From contig JACPSI010000127.1 in the NCBI GenBank assembly GCA_016193365.1, positions 1 to 32,383 of the forward strand: 32,383 nt of DNA, written 5' to 3'. Below, piece after piece: positions 5,125-31,162 of this stretch. Each line of letters starts with the position of its first letter. The stretch's first letter is position 1. The stretch is from Ignavibacteriales bacterium. Lineage in GTDB: Bacteria > Bacteroidota > Ignavibacteria > UBA10030. The position numbers were made by a program, and so were the translations under genes. The notes under the pieces were generated by a model, which saw nothing but the letters and a program-made list of their open reading frames with translations, made no database searches and was not told the DNA's origin.

Positions 5125-6393
5125 TTAGTAGCCCCGTAATTTTGTTGCTCTTGCGACGCGGTCAACGGCCAGAATAAAGGCGCCGATCCGCATGGAGACC
5201 TTGTGTTTTCGGCTCATTGCTTCCACGTCGTGATAGGACCGCACCATGACCTTCTCGAGCTCATCGTTGACGCGCTCGATATCCCACCGAAACTGCTGAA
5301 GGTTTTGCGCCCATTCGAAATACGATACCGTGACGCCTCCGGCATTTGCAAGGATATCCGGTATGACGGGAATACCTTTTTTCTCCAGAATCTCATCCGC
5401 TTCAAACGTCGTCGGACTGTTTGCACCTTCAACAATCATCTTTGCTTTCACGTATTCTGCGTTCCCTTTGTGAATCTGGTTATCGAGAGCGGCCGGTATG
5501 AGGACATCGCATTCAAGCTCCAGCAATTCGGCGTTTGTGATCTCTTCACACTTCGGGAATCCGGAGAGAACACGATTTTTCTTTACATGGGTAATCACTT
5601 CCGAAATGTTGATTCCTTTCGCGTTGTAAATCCCGCTTTTGGCATCGCTCACCGCGATCACCCTGACTCCCATGTCGTGGAGAATCTTCGCCGTGTTTGA
5701 ACCGACGTTGCCAAAACCCTGAATGGCAACGGTCGATTTTTTGAAATCGATTTTATTGGACTTTGCCGCCTCGCGAAAAACTATGACGACACCCCTGCCC
5801 GTTGCTTCTTCACGTCCATAGGATCCCAGAAGGTCGACAGGCTTACCGGTCACGCACGCCGGAGAAAACCCGTGTCGCTTGCTGTATTCGTCCATCAGCC
5901 AGGACATAACTTGTGCATTCGTGTTGACATCCGGCGCCGGAATATCCTCGTTCGGGCCAATCACGCAATCGATTTTCGAGGTAAAGATTCTTGTGAGTTT
6001 TTCGAGCTCGTTGATGGAAAGTTTCGCAGGGTCGCATGTGATGCCTCCCTTGGCACCGCCAAAGGGGACATCGACCACGGCTGTCTTCCAGGTCATGAGC
6101 GCTGCCAGAGCGCGCACTTCGTCCAAATCCACGTCAGGGTGATACCGCAGCCCGCCTTTGTTGGGCCCGCGCGCGTTGTTGTGCTGGACTCGATAACCCA
6201 CCAAAACTTCCAGCCTCCCGGTGTCCCGCATCAATGGAAGCTCTACCCTCAGCTCGCGGTCGGGCGATTTGAGAAGATGAGCGATGTCGCGGTCGAGTTC
6301 GATTTTTCCTGCTGCAACGTCGAAATTATGCAATGCCGTCTCGTAGCTCGTCACTTTTTTTTCGGGAGTAACGAGATGGGTTAGAGTGGCCAC
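5125..6393 (-). CDS. gdhA: Glutamate dehydrogenase (NAD(P)-dependent)
   Basis: A 422-residue Glu/Leu/Phe/Val dehydrogenase that interconverts glutamate with 2-oxoglutarate plus ammonia in the cytoplasm. Substrate-site motifs are intact: PNKGGLRYHP (K79), TWKTAVVDVPFGGAKGG (K103, K115) and APDVNT (D155). A Rossmann fold follows with GFGNVGS at 226-232. Asp250 at the end of the second strand (AVSDAKSG) favours NAD over NADP, as known for the family. Length matches the hexameric bacterial/archaeal class (~420). The start codon is GTG, with GAGG about 9 bases upstream; no in-frame ATG upstream is available. A good promoter match lies at 6451-6479, so it can be transcribed apart from the genes upstream. 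Downstream lipoprotein and amidase genes follow closely. Confidence 0.95.
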   Translation of the reverse strand: MATLTHLVTPEKKVTSYETALHNFDVAAGKIELDRDIAHLLKSPDRELRVELPLMRDTGRLEVLVGYRVQHNNARGPNKGGLRYHPDVDLDEVRALAALMTWKTAVVDVPFGGAKGGITCDPAKLSINELEKLTRIFTSKIDCVIGPNEDIPAPDVNTNAQVMSWLMDEYSKRHGFSPACVTGKPVDLLGSYGREEATGRGVVIVFREAAKSNKIDFKKSTVAIQGFGNVGSNTAKILHDMGVRVIAVSDAKSGIYNAKGINISEVITHVKKNRVLSGFPKCEEITNAELLELECDVLIPAALDNQIHKGNAEYVKAKMIVEGANSPTTFEADEILEKKGIPVIPDILANAGGVTVSYFEWAQNLQQFRWDIERVNDELEKVMVRSYHDVEAMSRKHKVSMRIGAFILAVDRVARATKLRGY

Positions 6394-6450
6394 GCGAAAT
6401 ACCTCGCTTATGAGAATGCGTCGAATTGATGAATTGGATGAGGCTTGATC

Positions 6451-6479
6451 AAGATAAGGGACAGGCGATCATTTCTCAA
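6451..6479 (-). promoter_or_regulatory. Candidate sigma-70-type promoter of gdhA
   Basis: On the minus strand TTGAGA (6479-6474), a 17-base spacer and TATCTT (6456-6451) precede gdhA. The predicted transcript start near 6443 gives a leader of about 50 nt. The -35 box lies immediately after the stop of the 53-residue membrane protein. Confidence 0.5.
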
Positions 6480-6484
6480 GGAGA

Positions 6485-6646
6485 TCAAACTCCCGTCCGC
6501 TTCGTAAAGAACCTGTAGAGAAATAACGCTGAGAACATTCCAACAATGACGAGACCGAACGTTCCAAGGGCGCTGATTTCAAAATACCTTCCTCCAAAAA
6601 TCCCCGCCACCGCACCAAGGGTTATGACGACCAATTGTGGCTTCAT
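6485..6646 (-). CDS. Small membrane protein, 53 residues
   Basis: A short minus-strand frame opens with ATG at 6646 and ends in TGA at 6485-6487. Its product begins MKPQLVVITLGAVAG and ends RFFTKRTGV. It has two hydrophobic stretches (residues ~4-17 and ~27-46) separated by a short charged loop, with a positively charged C-terminal tail, as expected of a small two-span inner-membrane protein. It fills the otherwise empty gap between the beta-barrel gene (38 bp upstream) and the gdhA promoter. I see no strong ribosome binding site, and I do not recognise the family. The clean membrane pattern and position support a real gene, but short frames can arise by chance. Confidence 0.5.
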   Translation of the reverse strand: MKPQLVVITLGAVAGIFGGRYFEISALGTFGLVIVGMFSALFLYRFFTKRTGV

Positions 6647-6684
6647 GGTTTCATATTTCGGGCTGGCCGGAGCGCATAATGTTT

Positions 6685-7500
6685 TTAAAGCCCGATCGCG
6701 ACGCCGATGCTATTCCATTGGATATGCTCTGCGTAAAACTGGCCCCGTTCATCTACGCCCGTTTGGTGTGCAAGCGAGAACCGCAGATTTCTGCCATTGG
6801 TCGACGGCCAGAGAAATCCCAGCTCAAACCTCTGCGTTGAGGCGAAACTCACTTCCTGGCGAAACTTGAAGTCGCTTCCCGCATAAACCACAAAACCAGG
6901 GCCAAAAGAGAACAATTCAGCGTCAACTCCGGTTTGGATCCACCATGGTTTGTGAATCGGTGAACCCGCGACAAAGTTGTACGAATACTGCGTCCCGGTA
7001 TAGAGCCGAACGGGTGAGAACATGTGGACAAAAAAAAGCTGAAGATAGTCCCTGCTGTAATCCAATGGTTTTGCGTTGAGACGGGCAAGCGCATTGTCAC
7101 CCAGATGATGGCTTGTGTGGCTTACACCCAGTCGGATAATCGTTGATTCATGCACGAGCGCGTCGAGAAGGAAAAAATCGATTACGAATTCGGTGCTCAT
7201 GAGGCTGATGCTCTGTTCAAGATCCAGCTGGGCATGCACAGATGCCCCGACGCTCGCCTGAAGCATGAATCCGGGATAATCTGTTCCGAGAACAGGCACG
7301 ACGGACCCGACGGTTCCCCTGAACTGTTTATTGCCGAACAGTTTTGCGGCTCCAAAACGGTGCGCCATGACGTCGCCGATAAAGGGTCTGAGCATTTGAT
7401 AGCTGGGGAAGAATTGAAGGGGTGAATCCGGCTGGCTGAGCAACTCGCGCAAATCTATAAAACCAATGGCAATGACGGTGAAGATTAGTCGTTTGTGCAT
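6685..7500 (-). CDS. Outer-membrane beta-barrel protein, DUF1207-like
   Basis: A 271-residue protein with an N-terminal hydrophobic signal (residues 1-22). The remainder is made of alternating amphipathic strands rich in aromatic residues and ending in hydrophobics (IGVAIGL), the pattern of an outer-membrane barrel. The segment LGVSHTSHHLGDNAL (about residues 123-137) resembles the SSHLGDE block of DUF1207 proteins; that family link is from memory and tentative. It follows the lipoprotein gene by 45 bp and precedes the 53-residue membrane protein by 38 bp, so the three are probably one transcript downstream of amrS. Function unknown. Confidence 0.6.
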   Translation of the reverse strand: MHKRLIFTVIAIGFIDLRELLSQPDSPLQFFPSYQMLRPFIGDVMAHRFGAAKLFGNKQFRGTVGSVVPVLGTDYPGFMLQASVGASVHAQLDLEQSISLMSTEFVIDFFLLDALVHESTIIRLGVSHTSHHLGDNALARLNAKPLDYSRDYLQLFFVHMFSPVRLYTGTQYSYNFVAGSPIHKPWWIQTGVDAELFSFGPGFVVYAGSDFKFRQEVSFASTQRFELGFLWPSTNGRNLRFSLAHQTGVDERGQFYAEHIQWNSIGVAIGL

Positions 7501-8145: not shown

Positions 8146-9191
8146 CTGCCGGGGATTGTGGTTCCGCACTTGAAACAACTTCCGTCCTTGACTTCGTTTT
8201 TTGCCACACGGAAGCCCCAACGTTCAACAAGTGTTTCATGGCACGAGGGGCAAAACGTGTTCTCATACTTGCCTACCTGGCCAGGAAGATTTCCGGCATA
8301 AACGTAGCGGAGCCCGGCGTTGTATCCGATTTCCGCAGCGCGAATCAGCGTTGAGACCGGCGTGTTGTCGGGGTCGATCATCTTGTAATCCTTGTGAAAA
8401 GCCGTCACGTGCCATGGGATGTCGGGCGAAATTCCTGCCAAAAAAGATGCTATGTCGCGCAACTCCTCTTCCGAATCGTTGAATCCCGGTACGAGCAGTG
8501 TGACAATCTCCATCCAGAATCCGCGTTCATGCAGCATTTTGATTGTGTCCAGGACATTCTGAAGTACACCGCCAAGCTGCGAGTATTCTTTTTGCCTGAA
8601 ACCTTTCAGGTCAACTTTGTACAGGTCCACCCACGGCTTGATATATTCAAGCACTTCTGATGTCCCGTTTCCGTTGGAGACATAGGAAGTGATAAGCCCA
8701 ACCTGCTTTGCCATTCTGAAAATCTCGACGGCCCATTCGCTCGTGATGAGGGGCTCGTTGTACGTGCTCGTGACAATTTTGGCTTTATTCTTCAGAGCAA
8801 GGTCGATAAATTCTTCTGGAGAAATAAAATCCGGAGACGACCCCGCCACAGGGTCACGAAGCGCTTGCGATGTCACCCAGTTTTGGCAATATCCGCAATG
8901 ATAATCACAGCCCAGCATGCCAAAACTTAGCGCCTTTGAGCCGGGGTACGCATGGAAAAAGGGCTTTTTCTCGACAGGGTCAAGCTGCAACGCGCCGACA
9001 TACCCCCACGGAACAAAGAGTTTCCCGTCTCGATTAAAACGCACGCGACAGATGCCATCTTTGCCGGGCGGAATTTTGCAGCGGTGCCCGCACGCATAAC
9101 AGCGTACCCATTTGTCGGGCATGGATTCATACAGCAGACCCTCCCGGGTATGCTCAGTAAGCAGCTCTTTCAGTGTGATTGTCTCTGCCAT
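8136..9191 (-). CDS. amrS: AmmeMemoRadiSam system radical SAM enzyme (AmrS)
   Basis: A 351-residue radical-SAM protein. The cluster-binding motif CDYHCGYC sits at C95, C99 and C102; SAM- and barrel-type motifs follow (TSTYNEP, YVSNGNGTSEVL, LKGF, HVTAFHKDY). The N-terminal Cys cluster (C31, C34, C38, C48 in CYACGHRCKIPPG...GIC) and a C-terminal zinc-ribbon-like CPSC...CFKC tail are typical of the AmrS family, related to pyruvate formate-lyase activating enzymes. The ATG at 9191 was chosen over the in-frame start at 9239 because it matches the family start and leaves the palindromic leader untranslated. The usual partners (AMMECR1-like AmrA and Memo-like AmrB) are not in the window. It leads a run with a lipoprotein and an outer-membrane protein. 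Substrate unknown. Confidence 0.9.
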   Translation of the reverse strand: MAETITLKELLTEHTREGLLYESMPDKWVRCYACGHRCKIPPGKDGICRVRFNRDGKLFVPWGYVGALQLDPVEKKPFFHAYPGSKALSFGMLGCDYHCGYCQNWVTSQALRDPVAGSSPDFISPEEFIDLALKNKAKIVTSTYNEPLITSEWAVEIFRMAKQVGLITSYVSNGNGTSEVLEYIKPWVDLYKVDLKGFRQKEYSQLGGVLQNVLDTIKMLHERGFWMEIVTLLVPGFNDSEEELRDIASFLAGISPDIPWHVTAFHKDYKMIDPDNTPVSTLIRAAEIGYNAGLRYVYAGNLPGQVGKYENTFCPSCHETLVERWGFRVAKNEVKDGSCFKCGTTIPGRWG

Positions 9192-9366: not shown

Positions 9367-10551
9367 ATGATTACACTTTTGGCACGACTTCGGAGAAAAA
9401 AGTCCAAATTAATTGTTGGGTTAATTTCGGGGACCTCCGTCGACGGGATTGATGCGGCGCTCGTGAAAATATCAGGCAATGCTACCTCAACGCGTCTTCG
9501 GCTCATTGCGTACGATACCTATTCCTACCCCGAAGGAGTACGGGAGTATGTGCTTGAGAACTCCCTTGCCGGGAAGGGAAGCGTGGATATCCTCTGCTCG
9601 TTGAATATTCTTATCGCCCAGTTCTTTGCCGATGCCGTGAAGAAAGTTGCGCGCAAAGCCGATGTTTCTTTACGCGAGATCGACCTCATCGGTTCACACG
9701 GTCAGACGGTGCACCATCTTCCTGACGTAAAACGGCTCTTCGGAAAACATGTTCGCTCAACGCTGCAGATTGGCGACCCTTCCTCCATTGCGCAACTTAC
9801 GGGAATTCCTACGGTGGGAGATTTTCGAACTGCCGACATGGCCGCAGGCGGCCAAGGTGCCCCTCTTGCTCCATATCTCGACTACGTCGTGTTTCGGTCA
9901 AAACAGAAAGGAAGGCTTCTACTCAATCTCGGCGGAATCGCCAACATGACGATGCTTCCAAAAAATTGTTCACTCGACGAGGTCATCGCATTCGATACAG
10001 GACCGTCAAACATGGTCATGGATGCGTTGATGAAAAGGTTTTACGGGCAAACGTTTGACGCGGGAGGAAGAGTTGCAGAATCCGGCTCAGTGCTTCCTCA
10101 CGTTCTGAAATGGATGATGAAAATGCAGTATTTCAAAAAAGCTCCGCCAAAATCGACGGGTCGGGAACTGTTCGGTGCGCGTTTTGTCAGCGAAGTGCTC
10201 CGCAGATCGCGGGGCAAGTCGAAACAGGACGTCATCGCAACAGCGACGGAACTCACTGCCCGTACTGTGTACGGCCAGTACACCCGTTTTGTCCGGCCGA
10301 AAAATAAAATCGACGAGGTCATCGCCAGCGGCGGCGGTGTTCACAACAAAACACTCATGCGCGCACTCCGGTCGTACTTCTCGCCCATTCCCGTCCTTCC
10401 GGCGGAAGACATTGGCTTTTCTTCCGACGCAAAGGAAGCCATCCTCTTCGCGGTTCTCGCCAACGAAACAATTTCCGAAAACCCGTCGAACGTACCACGC
10501 GCCACTGGGGCACAGAAACCTGTCATTCTGGGAAAAATCTGCTTAGCTTAA
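9367..10551 (+). CDS. anmK: Anhydro-N-acetylmuramic acid kinase
   Basis: A 394-residue AnmK, which opens the 1,6-anhydro ring of anhMurNAc and phosphorylates it with ATP, giving MurNAc-6-phosphate in cytoplasmic peptidoglycan recycling. Recognisable blocks are GLISGTSVDGIDAAL (18-32), GSHGQTVHH (109-117), GDFRTADMAAGGQGAPLAP (151-169), LLNLGGIANMT (185-195) and FDTGPSNMVMDAL (209-221), all of the ASKHA kinase fold, followed by ASGGGVHN and FSSDAKEAILFAVLANE near the end. Length is normal for the family (~370-390). It diverges from amrS across a 175-bp region; no strong Shine-Dalgarno is visible before the ATG. MurQ, the enzyme expected to act next, is not in the window. Confidence 0.95.
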   Translation: MITLLARLRRKKSKLIVGLISGTSVDGIDAALVKISGNATSTRLRLIAYDTYSYPEGVREYVLENSLAGKGSVDILCSLNILIAQFFADAVKKVARKADVSLREIDLIGSHGQTVHHLPDVKRLFGKHVRSTLQIGDPSSIAQLTGIPTVGDFRTADMAAGGQGAPLAPYLDYVVFRSKQKGRLLLNLGGIANMTMLPKNCSLDEVIAFDTGPSNMVMDALMKRFYGQTFDAGGRVAESGSVLPHVLKWMMKMQYFKKAPPKSTGRELFGARFVSEVLRRSRGKSKQDVIATATELTARTVYGQYTRFVRPKNKIDEVIASGGGVHNKTLMRALRSYFSPIPVLPAEDIGFSSDAKEAILFAVLANETISENPSNVPRATGAQKPVILGKICLA

Positions 10552-10648: not shown

Positions 10649-11851
10649 ATGCGCAAAGAAAAGCTCATCATCATATTCACCGTTCTGGTGGACGTCATTG
10701 GGTTCGGCATGGTCATCCCGATACTTCCGTTTTACGTCACTGAATTCGGCGCTTCTCCCTTCGTTATAACCGCCTTGTTTGCATCCTTTTCGCTTTGCTC
10801 GTTTTTCAGCGCTCCATTGTTGGGGGCATTGTCGGATCGGATTGGCCGGAGGCCCGTCCTTATCGTCAGCCTGTTCACCACTGCAATCGGGTGGTTTGTC
10901 TTTGCTAGCGCGACATCCATCCCGTTGTTGTTCCTCGGCAGGGTCATCGATGGCCTGGCGGCAGGAAATTTTACGATTGCGCAGGGATACCTCGTCGATA
11001 TTTCGGAGGACGACAAAGAACGAACCGCCAACCTCGGCATCATAGGGGCAACATTCGGCGTCGGCTTTATGCTCGGCCCGCTTCTTGGCGGAGTACTGAG
11101 TAAAGTTTCTCATGCGTTTCCGTTTTGGATTGCCGGCGGAATGGCCCTCGCCAACACCGTCACGGCATATTACTTTCTGCCGGAAACTCACAACAAACGC
11201 GAGGCCCGCACACCGCTGAACTTTAATCCGCTTGCTCCACTCGCCAGGGCGCTGCTCGACAGCAAGTTGCGTCCTGTCTATTTTTCCTGGATGTTGTTTA
11301 TGCTTGCCTTTGTCACTTCACAATCGATCTTTGCGCTTTTTGTCAACGACGTGTTTGGGTTTGACTCCTTCGTGACGGGCATGCTTTTCACGGGCGTGGG
11401 CGTTATTGTTGCTCTTAACCAGACTCTCCTACTCAAAAAGTTCTGGCTGAGGTTCTTTCGCGAGTCCACTCTGCAACCGATAATGTTTGCCGCTCTTACG
11501 CTGGGCGCATTGCTGGTGACGTTGAAATCTCTCCAACTGTTCTACCTGAGCTTAGTATTATTTGGCACAGGACAATCGATTCTCCGCGTCGTCATAACGA
11601 GCGAAGTGGCCGGGAGCGCCGACCCGCAGAAAAAAGGAGAAACGCTTGGGATTCTCTCGTCCATCTTGTCTGCATGCATGGTGGCCGGTCCTATCGCCTC
11701 GGGAGCGCTGTTTGAGTTCCACAATACTCTTCCGTATTTCGCTGCGGCATTGTATCTCCTCATCGGCCTTACGGTTGCACTCAGAAGCCGGGAGCAAACC
11801 TCAGAGCTTAGAATTATGACTGATCGTGTCAGTGGGGTTGACAAGCCGTAA
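10649..11851 (+). CDS. MFS transporter, TetA-like drug:H+ antiporter family
   Basis: A 400-residue major-facilitator protein with about 12 hydrophobic spans. The MFS signature between spans 2 and 3 is clear (GALSDRIGRRPVL). Span 1 carries DVIGFGMVIPILPFY, typical of the TetA/DHA1 branch of efflux pumps, and the later GPLLGGVLS resembles the antiporter motif of span 5. The substrate cannot be inferred; TetA resemblance does not prove tetracycline export. The ATG at 10649 is preferred: an in-frame ATG at 10610 would begin inside the nested palindrome and add a non-conserved 13-residue leader. Neither has a well-spaced ribosome binding site. The gene follows anmK by about 100 bp and precedes three unknown membrane genes. 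Confidence 0.9.
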   Translation: MRKEKLIIIFTVLVDVIGFGMVIPILPFYVTEFGASPFVITALFASFSLCSFFSAPLLGALSDRIGRRPVLIVSLFTTAIGWFVFASATSIPLLFLGRVIDGLAAGNFTIAQGYLVDISEDDKERTANLGIIGATFGVGFMLGPLLGGVLSKVSHAFPFWIAGGMALANTVTAYYFLPETHNKREARTPLNFNPLAPLARALLDSKLRPVYFSWMLFMLAFVTSQSIFALFVNDVFGFDSFVTGMLFTGVGVIVALNQTLLLKKFWLRFFRESTLQPIMFAALTLGALLVTLKSLQLFYLSLVLFGTGQSILRVVITSEVAGSADPQKKGETLGILSSILSACMVAGPIASGALFEFHNTLPYFAAALYLLIGLTVALRSREQTSELRIMTDRVSGVDKP

Positions 11852-11914
11852 GTTTCTTTGTACACTCTTACCGCTTTCCTTACCAATCCTCTTTGACAAT
11901 TTACGGGAGGTCCT

Positions 11915-12547
11915 ATGATGTTCCTTTGGCTCATCGTTGGTCTCGTCCTCGTCACTATAGCGTTCTTTCTTCCCGGGAGCCCGCAGGATGTTTGGCCCAA
12001 TCTCAATTTGGCCGGTATTGTCGCCGCCATTTACATCCTCGCGCTCATAGCCTATACCTTGCGGTCACCATTCGGTAAAAAGGCGCAAGCCATCGTGTGG
12101 ATCATCACGCTGCTTACCTTGCCTGCACTTGGAATGTTTTGGACTGGAATGGATACAACCAGCCACTGGCAGCACAACAAGCTCCTCAGTATTCGTGAGA
12201 TGATCGGCAGGGGAATTATCGCCGCTGAAGTGTCGGATACTCTGCTTTCCGTGCTTGACGAGTACCACAATCAAAAAGGTGGAAAAAAGACCACACTCCA
12301 TCAAGTATTTCAACGACGATATCCGCGCGTCATGGTCGGTGACAACATTCACCTGCCCGGCTACCCCGGCGACAGTCTTCGTATCTTCATGAGCAGTCTC
12401 TCCGATGATGCGATCATGCTGGATGCCCAGGAAATGTACGTCAAAGGCCGCGACCCGGCGTTCAAGAATTTCAATGGAAGGACTGGGATGGTCCAGGAGC
12501 GGTATACACTCACCGCGAAAGGAGTACACCATGAATCCCAAAATTGA
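11915..12547 (+). CDS. Unrecognised membrane protein with soluble C-terminal domain
   Basis: A 210-residue protein. Three hydrophobic spans (about residues 4-20, 31-49, 58-78) are followed by a ~130-residue soluble part starting HWQHNKLLSIREMIGRG and containing HNQKGGKKTTLHQVF and GDNIHLPGYPGDSLRIF. GGGAGG sits 6 bases before the first of two adjacent ATGs, a good ribosome binding site. The stop lies 17 bp inside the next gene, so the two are probably translationally coupled. I do not recognise the family. The last membrane span followed by a helical stretch has the general shape of an envelope protein displaying a domain outside the membrane; no function is proposed. Confidence 0.75.
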   Translation: MMFLWLIVGLVLVTIAFFLPGSPQDVWPNLNLAGIVAAIYILALIAYTLRSPFGKKAQAIVWIITLLTLPALGMFWTGMDTTSHWQHNKLLSIREMIGRGIIAAEVSDTLLSVLDEYHNQKGGKKTTLHQVFQRRYPRVMVGDNIHLPGYPGDSLRIFMSSLSDDAIMLDAQEMYVKGRDPAFKNFNGRTGMVQERYTLTAKGVHHESQN

Positions 12548-13301
12548 ATCGGATGTCAAGAGAGCGGAATTCTCCCCCGAATTTATCCAGGTACTCATCG
12601 CTCTCACGGGAGCCACGTTACTCCTGGTCTTCGTTTTTGAACACGTGTTCAAGCTTCATACGTTATATGAGCGATATTTCTTCACTCCCTTTCCATGGAT
12701 TATCGCTGCCGGACTGACCATTGCTGACGGACTTTCAAAATTCTCAGGCGAACAGCCAGCCGTCGTTTCCCAAGGAGAGCGTCTTGCCGTTTTGGCAAAC
12801 TTTCTCATTATCTATGTCGTTGCCCCAACGATGTTCTTTTTTGGGTGGCGGCACCGACGCTTGCTCCAGGATCAGGGTGAGGGAAGAAGAACCCTTTGGA
12901 CGTTCATTCTTATTGTGGGGGGCATGTTAACGTTCTCTGCAGTTATCCCTGCCATTCCTGCAGCCATCGCCCAGCGCGCGGTCTCAACGAGTTTACGAGA
13001 TGCGCAGGCGGTTCAGGGAAACAAAGACCTCATGATCAATGATCTCAACGTTCTCGCATGGTCAGCGCGTCAGTACAAGATCCTCCCGAAATCATTGGGG
13101 GGAGGAGGCGGGTCATTTGTCGGATATTCACCGACAGGCGAAATCGCATCAACAGAAGAAGGAACATATTCCGTGGAAGCCTCAGCGAATGTTTGCAGTG
13201 TGAATGCGCGGTCAAAAAAATATCCATACGCTACCATCCGTTTGATCATCGATGAGAGAGGAAAACTTCAGAAGTGGAATTACGGTGGGCCATTCGAATA
13301 A
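12531..13301 (+). CDS. Unrecognised membrane protein with GGGGGS-containing C-terminal domain
   Basis: A 256-residue protein with four likely membrane spans (about residues 20-38, 48-62, 86-104, 122-145). A soluble domain follows: a helix (DLNVLAWSARQYKIL) running into KSLGGGGGSFVGY and a beta-rich end (YATIRLIIDERGKLQKWNYGG). Start chosen at ATG 12531, with AAAGGAG upstream, rather than the longer frame from 12405 that would overlap the previous gene by 143 bp. The helix plus glycine run recalls pseudopilin-like globular domains in Ignavibacteria proteins, a resemblance from memory that needs a structural search. It overlaps the gene before it by 17 bp and is followed after 21 bp by the third gene of the cassette. 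Confidence 0.75.
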   Translation: MNPKIESDVKRAEFSPEFIQVLIALTGATLLLVFVFEHVFKLHTLYERYFFTPFPWIIAAGLTIADGLSKFSGEQPAVVSQGERLAVLANFLIIYVVAPTMFFFGWRHRRLLQDQGEGRRTLWTFILIVGGMLTFSAVIPAIPAAIAQRAVSTSLRDAQAVQGNKDLMINDLNVLAWSARQYKILPKSLGGGGGSFVGYSPTGEIASTEEGTYSVEASANVCSVNARSKKYPYATIRLIIDERGKLQKWNYGGPFE

Positions 13302-13322
13302 TAAAACGGGAAAGAAATTAAC

Positions 13323-13739
13323 ATGGAAAACTCAACCTCCGTTCGACCTTTTAAGGTAATCGACTGGAAATGGGTCGGCTTAGGATACTGCTTCTACGTC
13401 GTTTACCATTTACTGCCTTCCTATCTTCTCCTTGGTTTGACTCAGTTCGGTTGGACCGATGAGCTTGCCAAAGGTATCTGCCTTTTTGCCGGACTTGCCC
13501 TCATCGGCTTTTACATCGGTTATCGTTCGCAAGGCGTGACCATCCTTGAGCCGGCAATTTCAGCCATCGTGTATATACTCACGCTTGCCTTGCTTTTCGA
13601 CCGATTCTGGGGAAGGTCGTTTTCGATAAGATCCGCAGGATTGATTTATGTGTGGATTCTTGGCGGTTTTGTGATCGCGTTCGTCAGCGCCTGGATAGGA
13701 GAATTGTGGCAGGCCCGAAGGCAATCTGCGAAAGCGTAA
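13323..13739 (+). CDS. Unrecognised four-span membrane protein
   Basis: A 138-residue, very hydrophobic protein with about four membrane spans (residues ~18-38, 48-66, 75-92, 103-125) and short polar loops such as YRSQGVTILEP between spans 2 and 3. The C-terminal tail is basic (WQARRQSAKA), suggesting an inside orientation. It is the last gene of the three-gene membrane cassette; a strong hairpin terminator begins 5 bp after its stop. I do not recognise the family. The ribosome binding site is weak (GGGAAAG 9 bases upstream). Confidence 0.75.
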   Translation: MENSTSVRPFKVIDWKWVGLGYCFYVVYHLLPSYLLLGLTQFGWTDELAKGICLFAGLALIGFYIGYRSQGVTILEPAISAIVYILTLALLFDRFWGRSFSIRSAGLIYVWILGGFVIAFVSAWIGELWQARRQSAKA

Positions 13740-13743
13740 GAAA

Positions 13744-13774
13744 AAGCCCCGTGAGTGGATCTCTCACGGGGCTT
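13744..13774. terminator. Bidirectional intrinsic terminator
   Basis: AAGCCCCGTGAG and CTCACGGGGCTT form a perfect 12-bp stem with a 7-base loop. It sits between the convergent membrane cassette (stop at 13739) and TPR gene (stop at 13796). Read on the minus strand it is followed by a T-run (TTTTTC), making it a textbook terminator for the etf-bfn-TPR operon; on the plus strand the trailing sequence is less T-rich. Confidence 0.9.
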
Positions 13775-13795: not shown

Positions 13796-14608
13796 CTATT
13801 TCTGCTTGAGCATTTCCAGCAGCACTTTTGATTCCCGCCGGAACTGGTCGTCGTCCTCGTCCTGCGTAGGCAGCAACGATATCACGGACAAATGCTCTCG
13901 CGCCTTGTCATATTCGTCAAGGTCGATATAGGCGCGCGCAGCGTCAAGCCGATACATGATAAAATCGGGCCGTAACAAAATTGCTTTTTCGTAGTTCGTC
14001 GTCGCATCTTCCACGCTTGCCCATCCCAACCCAAGCGGCCACCGCACAATTCTCGGCTTTTCGCTTACCTTGGCGTGTGTTCGGCCCAGGACATAATAGG
14101 CGGCATTATTGCTCGAATCCAACTCGATGCCTTTCTCGCAATCCATCTTCGCCTGCTTTACATAGTCCAGCGCACTCCAGACTCCTTTAAAAAGCGCAAT
14201 ACGCCCGTTGGCGATCGCCCTACGTGTGTACGCCATGGAATTCTTCGGGTTGAGGGACACAGCTTTTTCCGCGAAGTCCAGCGACTTCTCGTAGGTTGCA
14301 AGTTGTTTCTCCTTCTCAGCCTCTGTCGTGGAAGGAAGATGTTCGCCGATGTCCACATAACAACGACTGATTCGCCAGAGAACTTCGTCATCGCTTGGCG
14401 CCAGGGCCAACGCATCCTGAAATTTCTCAAGGGCTTTCTGGTTGTCGAACAGTTTCAGGGCAAGGTCGTCGCCTTCGGCGATGAGCCGGCTGATGTTTCC
14501 GGTGTCGAGGGATACTGTCTGGCAATACGAGGTGACTGGAAAAGCCAACGCTACAATGACAGCAAAGGAATGCGCGCTGCCCCCCCACACGCGAAACTTT
14601 TCTGGCAA
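13796..14608 (-). CDS. Exported tetratricopeptide-repeat protein
   Basis: A protein of up to 270 residues with an N-terminal signal (hydrophobic SFAVIVALAFPVTSYC) and TPR-type helical pairs: KALEKFQDALALAPSDDEVLWRI, DFAEKAVSLNPKNSMAYTRRA, KMDCEKGIELDSSNNAAYYVLG and NYEKAILLRPDFIMYRLDAA. These repeats usually scaffold protein-protein contacts; location is probably periplasmic. The start is uncertain. The frame opens with TTG at 14608, and a GTG at 14590 is an alternative; neither has a clear ribosome binding site, and a run of seven G lies just after them. It is 44 bp downstream of the bifunctional nuclease gene and ends at the strong terminator, so it closes that operon. Confidence 0.8.
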   Translation of the reverse strand: MPEKFRVWGGSAHSFAVIVALAFPVTSYCQTVSLDTGNISRLIAEGDDLALKLFDNQKALEKFQDALALAPSDDEVLWRISRCYVDIGEHLPSTTEAEKEKQLATYEKSLDFAEKAVSLNPKNSMAYTRRAIANGRIALFKGVWSALDYVKQAKMDCEKGIELDSSNNAAYYVLGRTHAKVSEKPRIVRWPLGLGWASVEDATTNYEKAILLRPDFIMYRLDAARAYIDLDEYDKAREHLSVISLLPTQDEDDDQFRRESKVLLEMLKQK

Positions 14609-24326: not shown

Positions 24327-25145
24327 TTGTTGATCGACATACTCAACGGTGTTCTCCCTCTGTTGTATGCGGGAACGGTCTGGCTGTATGCCAGGGCCTT
24401 TTTTAGCGATGCTCATGTTGCAAAAAAGATCAAGACTCCCGTCCTGATTGGAACTGTCGTTGCGCACGCCGGCTACCTCTTCCTCCGGACTCTCACGTTT
24501 CAACATCCTCCCATCACGACGACCTCTGAAATCATGTCGCTGATCGCGTTCTGCGTTGCGGTTGCGTATGCCCTCACGGAGGCACTCACAAAGGTCAAAA
24601 ACACCGGTTATTTTATTCTGATACTTTCATTCTTCTTCCAGGTCGTATCCACGTTTTTCATCCAGGACCTTCATGAGGTGAAGCCCATCCTCAGGAGCAA
24701 TCTTCTGGGGATTCATGTGTCGGCTGCGTTGCTGGGATACACGGCTATTACTATTTCGGCCGGCTATGGATTTCTCTACTTGATGCTGTACCACAACATC
24801 AAGTCCAACCGGTTTGGCGTTCTTTATTCAAAGCTTCCCAATCTCGAGACACTTGAGCGCATGAGTTTCGTTTCCACCGTTCTCGGGTTTTTTCTAATAA
24901 CCATAGCTATCATTATCGGTTTCGTATGGCTGCCGAAAGCCTATGAAAGCTTCTCGTATTTCGACGCCAAGCTTATCGGCACCCTCGTCGTCTGGGGCCT
25001 CTACGGAATCGGGCTGGTGGCAAAAAAGATGCTGGGCTGGCAGGGACGCAAGATTATGATTCTTTCTCTGACGGGGTTTGTCATCTCCGTTTTTTCTCTG
25101 ACCGCGATAAACATGTTTTTCAGCAGCTTCCATAATTTTTATTAA
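24327..25145 (+). CDS. CcsA/HemX-like membrane protein, first gene of the heme operon
   Basis: A 272-residue protein with about eight hydrophobic spans, of the cytochrome c assembly (CcsA/HemX/YpjD) family. Candidate heme-handling His residues are H47 (VVAHAGYLF), H60 (FQHPP) and H130 (GIHVSAALLGY). The tryptophan-rich WWD segment of true CcsA (WGxxWxWDPKE) is degenerate here: ESFSYFDAKLIGTLVVWG at 207-224. That makes it more HemX-like than a full heme lyase. HemX also sits next to hemA in Bacillus, where it is reported to lower GluTR levels; this one may likewise tune HemA. The frame begins with TTG (24327), with a second TTG immediately after; no ATG start is available. hemA follows after 18 bp. 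Confidence 0.8.
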   Translation: MLIDILNGVLPLLYAGTVWLYARAFFSDAHVAKKIKTPVLIGTVVAHAGYLFLRTLTFQHPPITTTSEIMSLIAFCVAVAYALTEALTKVKNTGYFILILSFFFQVVSTFFIQDLHEVKPILRSNLLGIHVSAALLGYTAITISAGYGFLYLMLYHNIKSNRFGVLYSKLPNLETLERMSFVSTVLGFFLITIAIIIGFVWLPKAYESFSYFDAKLIGTLVVWGLYGIGLVAKKMLGWQGRKIMILSLTGFVISVFSLTAINMFFSSFHNFY

Positions 25146-25163
25146 AATCGCCGGATTGATCTT

Positions 25164-26453
25164 ATGAATCTTGTCTCGATAGGCATCAATCACCGTACGG
25201 CCCCGCTTGAGGTGCGGGAGAAATTGTGGTTCTCAGCCGAAGAAATGCGGTCGGTCCTTCCCGCGATTCGTGACCGCTGGTTTTCTGAATGCTTCCTTGT
25301 CTCCACATGCAACCGCACGGAGATTTACGGCATTCCCTCCGCCGCTATCGGGAACCCGCCCGCGGTCAACAACCTCGGCCAATATCTGATCGATGCGAAG
25401 TCGGCGCGAAGTTCTGTGGACAAACATCATCTCTACTCGCTGCACTCCACCTTTGCAGTCAATCATTTGTTGAGAGTCGCATCCGGTGTCGACTCGATGG
25501 TCGTCGGAGACGTTCAAATTCTCAGTCAGTTGAAAGAAGGCTTTAACCTTGCGCAGGATCAGAAAACCATCGGCATTTTCCTCAACCGCCTGGTGCAGTC
25601 TGCTTATCGTGTGGGAAAACGAGCGCGCACAGAGTCAACGATTGGGGAGGGCGCTGTTTCCATCAGTTATGCCGCCGTGGAGTTGGCGGGGAAGATTTTC
25701 GACAGCCTCTCAAAGAAATCGGCTCTCCTCGTTGGTGCAGGTGAAACCGGCGAGTTAACGGCGAGGCATCTAACCGGCAAAGGCATCGGAAGATTGCTCA
25801 TCACAAACCGCACGCGGTCGAAAGCTGAAGATGTGGTGACGTCTCTTGGCGGAACCGTCGTTGATTTCGACGAGTTGTCCGACACGATGACCGAGGTCGA
25901 TATTGTCATCACGTCTGTCGAATCTCAACAACCGATGATCACGGCGTCTCAGCTTGCCGACGTCATGAGGAAACGATCCCACAGACCGCTTTTTATCATC
26001 GACATCGGTGTGCCGCGCAACGTTGAACCCGCTGCCAACGCTATAGAGAACGTTTTCTTGCATGACCTCGATGCGCTTCTCGGCATTGTTGACCAAAACC
26101 TCGAAAAGCGAAAGTCGGAAATTCCCCTGGTCAATTCCATTATTCTCGAGGAGCTCAAGGAGTTTTATGCCTGGTATTCCTCTCTCGAAGTTAATCCGAC
26201 TATTGCCGACCTCCACACGCACTTTGAAGAAATCCGGCAGAACGAAGTTGCGAAAAACGTGAATAGATTTTCTTCCCCGAATGACAGGGAATTGCTCGAT
26301 CTCGTGACAAAACGAATCGTCAACAAGCTTCTCCACCTCCCGACCACCATGTTGAAGAATGGCCACGAAGAGCCCGATGAAGTCAAACGCAAGAGAATAC
26401 ACATTTTGCGTACCCTCTTCGGCTTGAACAATGATGCGAACAAGCGTTCATGA
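25164..26453 (+). CDS. hemA: Glutamyl-tRNA reductase
   Basis: A 429-residue GluTR, which reduces glutamyl-tRNA(Glu) with NADPH to glutamate-1-semialdehyde, the first committed step of C5-pathway tetrapyrrole synthesis. The catalytic Cys49 lies in STCNRTEIYG; NHLLRVASGVDSMVVGDVQI (100-119) carries the conserved His101, with Asp where many have Glu. The NADPH domain has LLVGAGETGELTARHL (188-203), followed by TNRTRSKAE, and a C-terminal dimerisation region ends the protein. Length is typical (~420). Its last four bases (ATGA) overlap the start of hemCD, implying translational coupling. Confidence 0.97.
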   Translation: MNLVSIGINHRTAPLEVREKLWFSAEEMRSVLPAIRDRWFSECFLVSTCNRTEIYGIPSAAIGNPPAVNNLGQYLIDAKSARSSVDKHHLYSLHSTFAVNHLLRVASGVDSMVVGDVQILSQLKEGFNLAQDQKTIGIFLNRLVQSAYRVGKRARTESTIGEGAVSISYAAVELAGKIFDSLSKKSALLVGAGETGELTARHLTGKGIGRLLITNRTRSKAEDVVTSLGGTVVDFDELSDTMTEVDIVITSVESQQPMITASQLADVMRKRSHRPLFIIDIGVPRNVEPAANAIENVFLHDLDALLGIVDQNLEKRKSEIPLVNSIILEELKEFYAWYSSLEVNPTIADLHTHFEEIRQNEVAKNVNRFSSPNDRELLDLVTKRIVNKLLHLPTTMLKNGHEEPDEVKRKRIHILRTLFGLNNDANKRS

Positions 26454-28060
26454 AGAGGACAAAGCTGACGATCGGAACGCGGGGGAGCGAACTCGCCCAA
26501 TGGCAAACAGCCTGGATCGCTCAGCAGCTCCATCGGCTTTTACCTGAAATTGCAGTCGAGACCGTCATCATCAAGACGACGGGGGACAAGATTCTTGATT
26601 CTCCGTTGTCCAAAATCGGCGACAAGGGCCTCTTTACAAAAGAAATCGAGCGAGCGCTCCTCGACGGAGCCATCGACCTTGCAGTCCATAGCTTGAAAGA
26701 CCTGCCAACAGTTATCCAGGGGGGATTGACCATAGCTGTTGTAACAGAGCGCGATGACGTCCGCGATGTTTTCATTTCGCATCCTCAAAAAAAGTATCGG
26801 TCCTTCAGGGACATTCCACGAAATGGTGTCATCGCCACGGGAAGTTTGCGAAGGAAATGTCAACTCTTGCATCATCAACCTGAGCTTCGCATTGTCGACC
26901 TCCGCGGAAGTCTTCGCACTCGCCGTGAAAAACTGGAGAAATCGGAGTGGGACGGAATTATTCTCGCAAAAGCCGGCGTTACGCGGCTCGGCTGGACGGA
27001 AATGATTTCAGAAACCTTCGACACCGAATTTATGTTGCCTGCGGTGGGACAGGGCGCTCTTGCCGTCGAGATTCGGGAAGACGATGCGGAACTCCGGGGC
27101 CTGCTGATGCCGTTGAATCATCTTCCGACACAACAAGCTACTTCCGGAGAACGGGCGCTTCTTCGGAGGCTTGAAGGCGGATGTCAAATTCCGATCGGAA
27201 CGTATGGAAGAGTTGAGAACGGCTCATTCAAGCTCGATGCCATGGTAGGCAGCCTTGACGGCTCGAAAATCGTTCGCGGTTCAATTCAGGGCGCCGCGAC
27301 ACAGTCTGATGCGCTCGGTCATCAACTCGCTGAGGAGTTGCTGGCGAAAGGCGCGGGAGCCATTCTGGATGAAATCAGAAAAACTGTTAAAGGGACGGTG
27401 AATGTCGGGTCATCCCCGACGCCGTCCTGGGATGAGTGCGATAAGGCGCTTAAAAACATTGCGGCTTACGACGGCTTGATATTGACGAGTGTGAACGCAG
27501 CGACATATGTTCTTAACCGCGCAAGGCTTGTGAATGATGATGGATTCCGGACTTTTTCTCAGAAGGCTATTTATGTCGTTGGAGAAAAAACGAAACGGGC
27601 TGTCGACGGCTTTGGATTGAGTGCTCGAACATTTGAAGAAGCCCGCGATGGCCGCACGATGGCACGGGCGCTCGCTCAGCAAGGCGTGAAGGGAAAAAGA
27701 CTCCTGTTTCCCAAAGGGAATCTAGCTTCCGATGAAATCCCGTCCATCCTTCGCGAGCACGGCGCTGCTGTCGACGAGGTTGTCGTTTACGAAACACGCC
27801 CTCCTTCTGACGAAGAGAGGGCAAGAATGAAAGAAATGTTTTCGCGGGAGCAAGTCGATCTGGTGATTTTTTTTAGCCCGTCGAGCATCAACAATTTTCT
27901 CAGCATAGTGCCTAAAGAATCGCTCGAGCGTGTTCGCATTGCCGCCATCGGCCAAACGACATCAGCTGCGGCGCAAAAAGCCTTATTACACTCCGACATT
28001 ATTGCGAATGAGCCGACCACCGAAGGGATTGTTTCGTCTATTGTAAGATTCTATGAATAG
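26450..28060 (+). CDS. hemC: Fused porphobilinogen deaminase-uroporphyrinogen III synthase (HemCD), HemD half shortened
   Basis: A 536-residue fusion. Residues 1-~312 are porphobilinogen deaminase: GTRGSELAQWQ (9-19), HSLKDLPT (80-87, catalytic D84), ATGSLRRKCQLL (129-140) and the dipyrromethane-cofactor Cys245 in LEGGCQIPIG. Residues ~325-536 match HemD: YDGLILTSVNAATYVL (340-354), YVVGEKTKRAV, GKRLLFPKGNLASDEIP, VVVYETRPP, VIFFSPSSINNFL and AIGQTTSAAA. The two enzymes make uroporphyrinogen III from four porphobilinogens. The linker runs straight from the HemC end to the second block of HemD: the usual first strand and helix of HemD (about 40 residues with the LTRP-type motif) are absent. 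HemD activity may therefore need a rearranged fold. The gene overlaps hemA by 4 bp and hemE by 8 bp. Confidence 0.93.
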   Translation: MKRTKLTIGTRGSELAQWQTAWIAQQLHRLLPEIAVETVIIKTTGDKILDSPLSKIGDKGLFTKEIERALLDGAIDLAVHSLKDLPTVIQGGLTIAVVTERDDVRDVFISHPQKKYRSFRDIPRNGVIATGSLRRKCQLLHHQPELRIVDLRGSLRTRREKLEKSEWDGIILAKAGVTRLGWTEMISETFDTEFMLPAVGQGALAVEIREDDAELRGLLMPLNHLPTQQATSGERALLRRLEGGCQIPIGTYGRVENGSFKLDAMVGSLDGSKIVRGSIQGAATQSDALGHQLAEELLAKGAGAILDEIRKTVKGTVNVGSSPTPSWDECDKALKNIAAYDGLILTSVNAATYVLNRARLVNDDGFRTFSQKAIYVVGEKTKRAVDGFGLSARTFEEARDGRTMARALAQQGVKGKRLLFPKGNLASDEIPSILREHGAAVDEVVVYETRPPSDEERARMKEMFSREQVDLVIFFSPSSINNFLSIVPKESLERVRIAAIGQTTSAAAQKALLHSDIIANEPTTEGIVSSIVRFYE

Positions 28061-29144
28061 CGTAACGCAAAGACAGTCCGCAACATCGAGGCCGAAAGCT
28101 CTGATCAACGATTTGTTTTTGAGGGCGTGCAAGCGTGAGGATGTCGAACGAACACCCGCGTGGTTTATGCGCCAGGCGGGACGATATTTGCCTGAATACC
28201 GACAGGTGAGGGAAAAAGTTGATTTCCTGACGTTGTGCAAAACTCCGGATCTTGCGGCCGAGGTGACCGTTCAGCCTGTTGATATTCTCGGCGTCGATGC
28301 GGCAATTATTTTTTCAGACATCCTTGTCGTTCCCGAGGCGATGGGAATGGAGCTCATCGTTGAAGAAGGAAAAGGCGGCCCGCGTTTTCCCGCTCCGATT
28401 CGTTCTCGTGAGGAAATCGACAAGCTGGTTGTCCCTGACCCATATTCAAAACTCAAGTTCGTGCTGGAAGCGATCAAAGCAGCAAGACAAAATCTGAACA
28501 ACAAGGTCCCGCTCATTGGATTTGCCGGTTCTCCATGGACGCTCGCTGCTTACATGGTGGAAGGAAAGGGATCGAAAGACTTCCGTTTCGCAAAAGAATT
28601 AGCCTTCTCTTCGCCAAAGGATGCTCATACACTTCTCGATAAACTCGCAAGTGCCGTGGCTGCATACCTGAACGCCCAGATCGAGGCCGGTGCTCAAGCG
28701 ATCCAGATCTTTGATACGTGGGGCGGCCTTCTCGGACAGGAAGAATTCGAGGAGTTCTCGCTCCGTTACCTCAAGCAAGTACTCTCTTTGCTGAGAACAA
28801 ACGGCGCTCCGGTCATCACCTTTTGCAAAGACTGTGGACAGTCACTCGAAAAAATCGCGGACACGGGTGCTGACGTTGTCGGACTCGACTGGAAGACGGA
28901 TATCAGAAAAGCGAGAGATATGGTCGGAAGCTACGTTGCCCTTCAGGGCAATCTCGACCCCGTGATGCTCTTTGCAACACCGGAACGGATTGAGAAAGCG
29001 GTTCGAACAATACTCGAGAAATTCGGCAAAGGAAACGGTCATGTGTTCAATCTCGGACATGGAATCCTACCAGACACGCCGGTAGAGAACGTCAAAGTTT
29101 TTATCAATGCTGTAAAGAAGTTCAGCGTTCAATACCATGTATAG
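28053..29144 (+). CDS. hemE: Uroporphyrinogen decarboxylase
   Basis: A 363-residue HemE, which removes four acetate carboxyls from uroporphyrinogen III to give coproporphyrinogen III, without cofactor. Active-site blocks are intact: PAWFMRQAGRYLPEYR (35-50; Arg40 and Arg44), IIFSDIL (85-91; Asp89) and GFAGSPWTLAAYMVEG. The first ~15 residues (SVTQRQSATSRPK) are a loose extension relative to most homologues. It starts 8 bp inside the end of hemCD, consistent with coupled translation; no clear ribosome binding site is separable from coding sequence. Confidence 0.97.
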   Translation: MNSVTQRQSATSRPKALINDLFLRACKREDVERTPAWFMRQAGRYLPEYRQVREKVDFLTLCKTPDLAAEVTVQPVDILGVDAAIIFSDILVVPEAMGMELIVEEGKGGPRFPAPIRSREEIDKLVVPDPYSKLKFVLEAIKAARQNLNNKVPLIGFAGSPWTLAAYMVEGKGSKDFRFAKELAFSSPKDAHTLLDKLASAVAAYLNAQIEAGAQAIQIFDTWGGLLGQEEFEEFSLRYLKQVLSLLRTNGAPVITFCKDCGQSLEKIADTGADVVGLDWKTDIRKARDMVGSYVALQGNLDPVMLFATPERIEKAVRTILEKFGKGNGHVFNLGHGILPDTPVENVKVFINAVKKFSVQYHV

Positions 29145-29152
29145 TTGTTAAA

Positions 29153-29188
29153 TGCAAAGGGCGCAAAGAAGACGCAGAGATCGCAAAG
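29153..29188 (+). repeat. CGCAAAG-type heptamer repeat between hemE and hemF
   Basis: TGCAAAG (29153), CGCAAAG (29162), CGCAGAG (29173) and CGCAAAG (29182) follow one another at 9-11-9 base steps, that is, a ~20-base period. This is the only gap of note (112 bp) inside the heme operon. Similar CGCAAAG heptamer arrays are dispersed in many bacterial genomes as intergenic repeats (from memory). No terminator structure is evident. Confidence 0.6.
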
Positions 29189-29256
29189 AAAACAACTCGG
29201 CGCCCTTCGCACCCCCTTTACGGTCATTGCGGTTTCTTTTTTGACTCATTCTCATT

Positions 29257-30171
29257 ATGCCGCTTGTGGAAACGATTGCATCGAGAAAAGTCTCGCTTAA
29301 ATTAAGGGCGTCCACGTTTTTCAAGGAGTTGCAGGAAACAATCTGTGCAGCCATTGAAGGTGTGGACGGTCAAAGTAAATTCACGATTGACCGTTGGACT
29401 CATCCACATGGAGGGGGTGGTGATACGAGAATCATTGAAAACGGCGGAGTGCTTGAAAAAGGCGGCGTGAACTTTTCAGACGTGAGCGGCCAACTCAGCG
29501 AGAGGCTTGCCCGGCGACTCAAGGTGAAGCCAGAACACTTTCGCGCCACAGGAATCTCTCTCGTCCTTCACCCCTACAACCCGATGATTCCTACCGTTCA
29601 TTGTAACCTCCGTTATCTTGAACTCGAGAATGAAGATCGCTGGTTCGGCGGCGGAATGGATCTTACACCTTATTACCTGAACGAACAGGACGTTATTCAT
29701 TTCCATTCTACTCTCAAAAAAGCTTGCGATAAACACGATTCGTCCTATTATCCACGCTTCAAAAAATGGTGTGACGAATACTTCTTTATCAAACATCGAA
29801 GTGAGGGGCGCGGTGTTGGAGGGATTTTTTTCGATGACCTCCGCGAGAAGCCCGAGGAAACATTCTCGTTCGTCCAGGATATCGGCAACACGTTTCTCGA
29901 GGCCTACATTCCCATCGTCAACAACAGAAGAAAGGATCGTTGGGGCGACGCCGAGCGCCAGTGGCAGCTTCATCGGCGCGGACGGTATGCGGAGTTTAAT
30001 CTGGTGTACGACCGAGGCACGCTCTTCGGCCTGGAGACGGAAGGAAGAGTTGAATCCATTTTGATGTCGCTCCCACCGGCCGTACAGTGGAAATATAACG
30101 TTCAACCAAAACCCGATTCGCCGGAAGTAAAGCTTCTCGAAGCCCTGAAAACGCCAAAAGACTGGCTGTAG
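29257..30171 (+). CDS. hemF: Oxygen-dependent coproporphyrinogen III oxidase
   Basis: A 304-residue HemF, which converts coproporphyrinogen III to protoporphyrinogen IX with O2. Conserved blocks are all present: VLHPYNPMIPTVHCNLRYL (103-121), RWFGGGMDLTPYY (128-140), DEYFFIKHR (173-181), RGVGGIFFDDL (185-195) and RGRYAEFNLVYDRGTLFGL (241-259). Length matches the family (~300). The anaerobic radical-SAM alternative (HemN) is not in the window. No strong ribosome binding site is seen before the ATG at 29257. hemH starts 7 bp after its stop. Confidence 0.97.
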   Translation: MPLVETIASRKVSLKLRASTFFKELQETICAAIEGVDGQSKFTIDRWTHPHGGGGDTRIIENGGVLEKGGVNFSDVSGQLSERLARRLKVKPEHFRATGISLVLHPYNPMIPTVHCNLRYLELENEDRWFGGGMDLTPYYLNEQDVIHFHSTLKKACDKHDSSYYPRFKKWCDEYFFIKHRSEGRGVGGIFFDDLREKPEETFSFVQDIGNTFLEAYIPIVNNRRKDRWGDAERQWQLHRRGRYAEFNLVYDRGTLFGLETEGRVESILMSLPPAVQWKYNVQPKPDSPEVKLLEALKTPKDWL

Positions 30172-30178
30172 AGCTGGC

Positions 30179-31162
30179 ATGAACAAGAAAAAAATCGCAG
30201 TTGTGCTGTTTCAGCTTGGCGGGCCGGATTCACTCGGCTCGGTCCAGCCCTTCTTGTACAATTTGTTTTGCGACCCGGATATCATCAATCTGCCGGGCGC
30301 ATTTCTATTCCGCAAGCTTCTTGCACGATTTATTTCCACTCGACGCGCACCCAAAGTCCAGGATCTGTACAAAAGAATTGGCTCAAAGTCTCCCATCTTG
30401 AAACAAACACAGCTTCAGGCAGAAAGTTTAAAGAGTGCTCTTGGAAAACTCGGCATCGATGCGGACGTTCACATCGCTATGCGTTACTGGCATCCCATGA
30501 CAGACGAAGTTGTGAAAAACTTGTTGAACAGCCAAACCGACGAAATCGTGTTGCTGCCGCTGTATCCTCATTACTCCAGGGCAACGACCGGCTCAAGCCT
30601 CAACGAATGGAAACGTGTGACGCAGCAACTTCGCTACAACGGAGTTCCCACGAAATCTATTGAGCATTATAGCGACCACCCACTCTACATCGAAGCGATG
30701 GTCGAGCACGTGAATCTTGCCCTTGCCCGATTCACGAAGGAAGAGCAAGGAAATGTGCACCTTGTTTTCAGTGCTCACGGAATTCCGATGTCGTTCGTGA
30801 AAGGAGGGGATCCCTATCCGGAACACATCAAGCGATCCTACGAGCTGATTGTTGAAGAAGGCGCCTGGCGGCTTCCGCACCACCTTTGTTTTCAGAGCAA
30901 AGTTGGGCCGCAGAAATGGCTTGAACCATCCCTCACGAAGACAATCGAGGATTTAGCTGCGCAAAATGTTTCTCATCTCGTTGTGATACCGATTTCGTTT
31001 GTTACGGACCACATCGAGACACTTTCTGAGATCAACATTGAAGCACGCGAAGAAGCGCACGAGCTAGGAGTAAAGGGTTTTGAACTGATGCCGGCGTTGA
31101 TCCGCAACAAAAAGTTCATCGACTGTTTGGCAGACCTCGTCCGGAAACAGGTGAAGAACTAA
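30179..31162 (+). CDS. hemH: Ferrochelatase
   Basis: A 327-residue HemH, which inserts Fe(II) into protoporphyrin IX. The start VVLFQLGGPDSLGSVQPFLYNLF is typical. Catalytic His200 lies in VFSAHGIP (196-203), and the acidic metal-path residues are in FVTDHIETLSEIN (274-286; Glu280, Glu284). CFQSKVGPQKWLEP (237-250) is the family's signature loop. Length is that of the bacterial single-domain enzyme without a C-terminal [2Fe-2S] extension. It sits 7 bp after hemF and 1 bp before the oxidase gene, a tight operon. Its presence indicates the protoporphyrin-dependent heme route rather than the coproporphyrin route. Confidence 0.97.
   Translation: MNKKKIAVVLFQLGGPDSLGSVQPFLYNLFCDPDIINLPGAFLFRKLLARFISTRRAPKVQDLYKRIGSKSPILKQTQLQAESLKSALGKLGIDADVHIAMRYWHPMTDEVVKNLLNSQTDEIVLLPLYPHYSRATTGSSLNEWKRVTQQLRYNGVPTKSIEHYSDHPLYIEAMVEHVNLALARFTKEEQGNVHLVFSAHGIPMSFVKGGDPYPEHIKRSYELIVEEGAWRLPHHLCFQSKVGPQKWLEPSLTKTIEDLAAQNVSHLVVIPISFVTDHIETLSEINIEAREEAHELGVKGFELMPALIRNKKFIDCLADLVRKQVKN

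Follow-up and report, generated by a model that had tools for sequence, protein, structure and literature searches.

The window, a 32,383-nucleotide stretch of contig C113 in the 3.16-Mb draft genome (97% complete) of an Ignavibacteriales bacterium, contains three consecutive plus-strand genes for membrane proteins of 210, 256 and 138 residues, here designated A, B and C. A first-pass annotation of this DNA had described them as an unrecognised cassette with a 17-bp overlap between the first two genes and a 21-bp gap before the third, and the genes, overlap and gap are all present as claimed. The mechanical open reading frame of B opens upstream of the gene start, at 12405 rather than 12531. 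The features of the locus are as follows:

11915..12547, plus strand: gene A, 210 aa, with three membrane helices, the third extended as a 64-residue helix into a beta domain; the N-terminus is predicted inside and the domain outside
12077..12544, plus strand: probable pilin-like part of A, residues 55-210, from the AlphaFold2 (AF2) model and its comparison with PilV 5v23
12518..12524, plus strand: AAAGGAG, ribosome-binding-like site of B, within the conserved T-x-K-G codons of A
12531..12547, plus strand: 17-bp overlap of A and B; for 57 of 61 A genes the start codon of B has this position
12531..13301, plus strand: gene B, 256 aa, with three membrane helices, a predicted periplasmic loop helix, and the last span prolonged as a long helix into a beta domain
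12891..13298, plus strand: pilin-like part of B as modelled, residues 121-256, with the GGGGGSF motif, from the AF2 model and its comparison with PilV 5v23
13323..13739, plus strand: gene C, 138 aa, an accessory gene whose product has, as read from the sequence, about four membrane spans
13744..13774, no strand assigned: 12-bp hairpin separating C from the convergent TPR gene, with its T-run on the minus strand

The cassette had also been thought to be bounded by a strong terminator. The hairpin at 13744-13774 is indeed strong (-23.7 kcal/mol, z -6.2). Its T-run, however, is on the minus strand, which fits the convergent TPR gene at 13796-14608 best, so that the terminator claim holds only in part. 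A promoter-like site ahead of A (11838-11866) was not above chance, the region holding 2 such sites against 2.4 expected. The neighbours of this copy encode AnmK, an MFS transporter and a TPR protein. Elsewhere in the window, positions 24327-31162 carry an ordinary heme biosynthesis cluster (hemA, a hemC/D-like fusion, hemE, hemF and hemH, named by eye).

None of the three window proteins matched a Pfam or NCBIfam model over its cut-off. When all members of the A, B and C alignments were compared with Pfam, the only matches were weak and scattered, none better than E 2.8e-4 and none shared by more than two members, and NCBIfam searches with the A, B and C proteins of the genus-mate and with five paralogs gave matches only far below cut-off. 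Searches of the A and B profiles against the sequences of solved structures yielded chance-level matches only. Going by titles and abstract openings, no description of the A-B pair was found in the literature, nor any paper naming a partner of this kind for ECF/anti-sigma operons.

Relatives of A were collected with A itself as query, which found them in 19 of 61 close genomes, and then with a 24-row A profile, which recovered them from 27 of 98 genomes of the order and, in samples of 294 genomes from the class and 395 from the phylum, from 21 and 30 respectively. These genome sets overlap, and 23 of the 30 phylum-level finds belong to one distant family, f33. The loci compared comprise 58 stretches with 61 A genes, the window included. 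In 57 of the 61, reaching as far as a distant family of the phylum, B starts at exactly the 17-bp overlap (56 with ATG, one with GTG), which is more than chance would give. Of the frames that open there, 55 reach at least 190 aa, and a contig end truncates each of the remaining two. The exceptions are L046, with an overlap of 14 bp, L126, L127, and L048, which lacks B. A Shine-Dalgarno-like word of 4-6 bases precedes the B start in 45 of the 61 genes (a count without a chance control), lying within the T-x-K-G codons of A, so part of the C-terminal conservation of A may reflect a nucleotide constraint. No second copy of A was found in the window's own genome; B has six further matches there, mostly across its C-terminal domain.

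The stable unit is thus A-B and not the three-gene cassette. Gene C follows B in 15 A-B pairs and follows A in one A-C pair without B, and thus accompanies 16 of the 61 A genes; it was not found beside any of the 24 A genes in f33. For four of the 45 A genes counted as lacking C (L031, L034, L135 and L136), the contig stops shortly after A or B. C is therefore an accessory gene. Its residues 26-93 weakly match DUF7670 (E 2.8e-4), with a score of 21.7 bits that lies under the Pfam gathering cut-off of 29, and only one of 14 C members matches at all. A fused tandem duplicate related to C (298 aa) occurs elsewhere in the same genome (contig C46, L049:3446-4342), in a 9-kb stretch without an A or B match. 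The MFS gene was considered as a component and rejected, being present in only three of the 58 A stretches (the window, L026 and L030). The first-pass annotation had suggested from gene order and coupling that all three proteins form one complex, and had asked whether the genes stay together in other genomes, with or without the MFS gene. For A and B they do, and we conclude that these two very probably form one complex.

AlphaFold2 models of A and B were built from the alignments of their relatives, with mean pLDDT values of 92.7 and 84.8. In both models, a 64-residue helix runs from the last membrane span into a small four-strand beta sheet. In A, the helix spans residues 55-118 and the strands residues 155-162, 167-177, 192-200 and 203-208, with two membrane helices in front. 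In B, the helix spans residues 121-184 and is followed by four strands, the block having pLDDT values of 84-97, with two membrane helices and a loop helix in front. The model places the four strands behind the GGGGGS sequence, and so bears out the earlier remark that B has a helix followed by GGGGGS and a beta-rich end. Several spans had likewise been claimed for each protein, and hydropathy finds three in each. Across the relatives, by hydropathy only, 47 of the 61 A proteins have three spans, eight have two, four have four and two have one, while all 54 B proteins have three or four. By the same analysis, the loop before the last span carries a net charge of +3 in the A and B of the window, and this places the C-terminal domains, by prediction, in the periplasm.

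A structure-based search had been recommended for each product. Foldseek alone gave no match with E < 0.001 for either model: the best match for B was a PilA fusion with an E of only 0.05, and no pilin was among the 50 matches listed for A. The pilin match depends on a second comparison (VIA) of Foldseek's candidates. Residues 157-256 of B superpose on PilV (5v23) over 87 residues with an rmsd of 2.0 and a Z of 9.8, a score below the value of about 13 up to which the tool advises caution for long-helix models. Type IV pilins fill the nine highest rows for the B domain (Z 9.8 to 6.1), ahead of the first unrelated row at 5.7. For A, PilV is again on top, with a Z of 7.6, within the range that the tool calls common, and an rmsd of 2.7 over 86 residues; PilE (6.2) and PilA4 (6.1) are among several pilins that are interspersed with unrelated rows of similar Z.

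Profile comparison indicates that the domains of A and B are related to each other. The A profile reaches the B domain in G011 and G027 (E 4e-5 and 4e-4) and in G291, G429, G445 and G453 (E 9e-9 to 2e-4), and profile-profile alignment of A with B, covering 81 columns, gives an E of 2e-5 and a probability of 77%. On these models, we assign the soluble domain of B to the type IV pilin-like fold with high confidence, and that of A to a pilin-like fold with moderate confidence, the latter assignment leaning on the likeness of A to B. The earlier verdict that the proteins could not be assigned to a known family accordingly holds in that no curated family claims the genes; the fold of the soluble domain is nevertheless recognisable, firmly in B and probably in A.

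The B domain also occurs in other settings. Four mini-proteins of 127-130 aa consist of one N-terminal span and B's pilin-like domain (L002:1498-1881, L007:1357-1746 in the window's own genome, L032:987-1379 and L033:10731-11117). Three of the four were seen to start with MGQQQ, and prepilin peptidase was not detected in the host genomes; they look like unprocessed mini-pilins. In a further locus of the window's genome (L050, contig C78), two polytopic proteins with B's domain are encoded one gene apart at 5254-5898 and 6368-6967, and a gene for a STAS domain lies about 2 kb past the pair at 8826-9164, with a second STAS recognised by eye. In L004:1477-2202, also in this genome, the GGGGSYxGY domain of B stands behind a TPR region in a protein whose start is signal-like and which has no membrane span immediately ahead of the domain.

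Pilin folds are known from filaments and from secretion pseudopili that depend on a prepilin peptidase, and pilins carry a leader and a cleavage motif of the form [GA]-[hydrophobic]-x3-E ahead of the helix. A prepilin-like motif near the start of the last span was found in none of the 61 A proteins and in one of the 54 B proteins. A pilin would be expected to have a single span, extracted from the membrane as the pilus assembles; the A and B of the window have three, and the two spans ahead of the pilin helix would be expected to stop extraction from the membrane. Prepilin peptidase (PF01478) was tested in 41 of the 52 A-bearing genomes. No match was obtained in the window's genome (G000, a draft 97% complete), while 12 of 14 control genomes did match, nor in 37 of the 40 further A-bearing genomes. 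On the motif, span and peptidase results, membership of A-B in a type IV pilus was rejected. With type IV pilins such as PilV, PilA and PilE, the pair shares the long helix that starts within the membrane and the four-strand beta domain behind it; it differs from them in the two extra spans, in the missing motif, in the lack of a detected peptidase, in being a gene pair with a preserved 17-bp overlap, and in having signalling neighbours in some lineages.

Outside f33, 12 of 37 A genes have an ECF sigma factor and a zinc-finger-type anti-sigma factor directly upstream on the same strand (L029, L031, the second copy in L033, L034, L039, L045, L047 and L132-L136). These calls were made with profiles derived from an initial subset of the same genes, and Pfam confirms three of the pairs and one further anti-sigma. 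About 0.07 ECF-type neighbours would be expected by chance for 36 of the A genes (L130, cut by a contig end, being left out), an estimate derived from 184 zf-HC2 matches in about 101 Mb of sequence from the 27 genomes of the order with A. If only three ECF lineages are counted among 15, where 15 is an assumed number, the chance is about 3e-6. In a tree of 58 A proteins (without L048, L126 and L136), the ECF-linked rows fall in three separate places, although a single origin followed by losses is also possible. The linkage needs four changes on this tree, one of which is due to L130, labelled as having no such pair though its contig ends 366 bp ahead of A. The tree also joins two long branches, L127 and L137, a grouping that may be false.

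Five further A genes adjoin signalling genes of other kinds, giving 17 of 37 outside f33; these five were classed after inspection and without a chance control. A Ser/Thr kinase frame ends just ahead of A in two loci, at a distance of 12 bp in L040, with the kinase split over two overlapping frames, and of 9 bp in L041, with a stretch of unread bases in the frame. The B of L044 forms part of a 967-aa fusion protein that ends in a SpoIIE phosphatase domain and has further SpoIIE-like genes around it; the intervening region resembles a CHASE2 sensor by eye and is not called by Pfam. A GAF-SpoIIE gene lies downstream of C in L037, and a class III cyclase gene downstream of B in L046. No signalling gene adjoins the window copy or that of its genus-mate (G001, the nearest relative among the genomes compared), and an ECF pair stands next to A in none of the 24 cases in f33. 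There, A-B often lies beside photolyase-like genes, the single one tested falling below the Pfam cut-off, with a BlaI-type repressor further off in L118; a kinase-like frame 0.7 kb away on the other strand in L111 was left out of the signalling count.

Some other features recur at the ECF-linked loci. The A proteins of family f1 that follow an ECF pair (L029, L031, the second copy in L033, L034 and L039) share a similar N-terminal strand before the first span, ME-x-x-[TS]-[VI]-TIE or close to it, which could touch the anti-sigma factor; the strand is missing from the A of the window. An ammonium-transporter-like gene, recognised by eye, lies just upstream of the sigma/anti-sigma/A-B array in L029, L031 and L034, together with a P-II-like gene in L029 and L034, and genes of both kinds (by eye) precede the first A-B-C copy in L033.

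We consider the chances about even that A-B is a membrane-fixed, non-polymerising pilin-fold pair that passes an envelope signal to interchangeable outputs. In this model, two related inner-membrane proteins, synthesised in step through translational coupling, would assemble into a fixed heteromer that does not polymerise. Each is predicted to cross the membrane three times, with the last span continuing as a long periplasmic helix into the small pilin-like beta domain. An envelope event at the two periplasmic domains would alter the packing of the membrane helices, and their state would be read by a partner on the cytosolic side, which according to lineage could be an anti-sigma factor, a kinase, a SpoIIE phosphatase or a cyclase; a partner is likewise presumed for the window's orphan copy. 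The architecture is well supported, and the sensing role stands at about one half.

Anti-sigma domains may perceive stimuli through added sensory domains or possibly by binding other sensory proteins, according to PMC7406223. The anti-sigma factors that precede A-B have one membrane span and only a short tail, so that a partner could bring the sensor; those without A-B behind them in the same stretches are equally short, and the short tail alone thus does not call for A-B. The loci resemble ECF sigma/zf-HC2 anti-sigma operons in that 12 A-B pairs stand directly behind such a gene pair. They differ in that A and B match no Pfam or NCBIfam model and that the window copy has no sigma or anti-sigma genes beside it. 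A precedent for a pilin that is read within the membrane is PilS-PilA of Pseudomonas aeruginosa, in which, according to PMC6058289, an inner-membrane pilin acts as the signal to a membrane sensor kinase. The likeness would lie in a pilin-fold protein of the inner membrane that signals to a membrane-bound regulator; PilA is a true pilus subunit whose pool is sensed, whereas A-B has extra membrane anchors and no pilus peptidase was found.

The main rival to the sensor reading is that A-B is a stress-induced effector, an envelope-protective or structural complex controlled by the neighbouring sigma factor or kinase, and in the window and f33 lineages by a promoter of its own. An ECF pair is often followed by its target genes rather than by its sensors, and 20 of the 37 A genes outside f33, the window's included, as well as the 24 of f33, have no signalling neighbour. 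The orphan state of the window copy and its genus-mate and the lack of ECF pairs in f33 also weaken the sensor reading itself. Several loci have wall or stress neighbours. The cell-wall recycling kinase AnmK is encoded near A-B in two families of the order (window 9367-10551, by Pfam, and L128:1690-2865, by eye); a class A penicillin-binding protein lies just upstream in L112, a beta-lactamase-like gene and PrsW occur in L038, and the BlaI-type repressor of f33 may be added to these. This cell-wall flavour fits either a sensor or an output. An effector role leaves unexplained the fusion of B to SpoIIE and the recurrence of kinase, cyclase and phosphatase genes beside the pair, and we regard it as rather unlikely, if clearly the strongest competitor.

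It is improbable that A, B and C together make up a transporter or channel in which the long helices form a periplasmic collar and C is an extra membrane subunit. A and B are polytopic, as C is by eye, the MFS gene lies directly upstream in the window and in L026, and the lower structure rows for A include several that correspond to the membrane portions of mechanosensitive channels; those rows cover only the membrane helices of A, however, no transporter family is matched over cut-off, C was not found with 45 of the 61 A genes (the four cut by contig ends among them), and the MFS gene was not found in 55 of the 58 stretches. A role for A and B as pseudopilins or minor pilins, in either a type IV pilus or a type II secretion system, is most improbable, since their pilin-like fold is accompanied by two additional spans upstream of the pilin helix, by almost no cleavage-like motif ahead of the last span, and by no prepilin peptidase in the window's genome or 37 of 40 others.

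The A-B pair is real and conserved, unnamed in the family libraries searched, and carries a recognisable fold in an unexpected setting. The overlap kept in 57 of 61 A genes makes it a strikingly stable case for the study of translational coupling. A conserved pilin-fold pair locked in the membrane of bacteria without a detected prepilin peptidase would represent a different use of this fold. With somewhat less confidence than the sensor reading itself, we suggest that A-B may define a new class of transmembrane receptor, in which a pilin fold is used outside the pilus, within a heteromer anchored permanently in the membrane, as a plug-in sensor that serves ECF sigma factors, Ser/Thr kinases, SpoIIE phosphatases and cyclases in Ignavibacteriales-type and other lineages of the phylum. 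Should A-B prove to be the input of ECF sigma factors whose anti-sigma partners lack a sensor domain, this would offer a concrete answer to the question of what those anti-sigma factors respond to.
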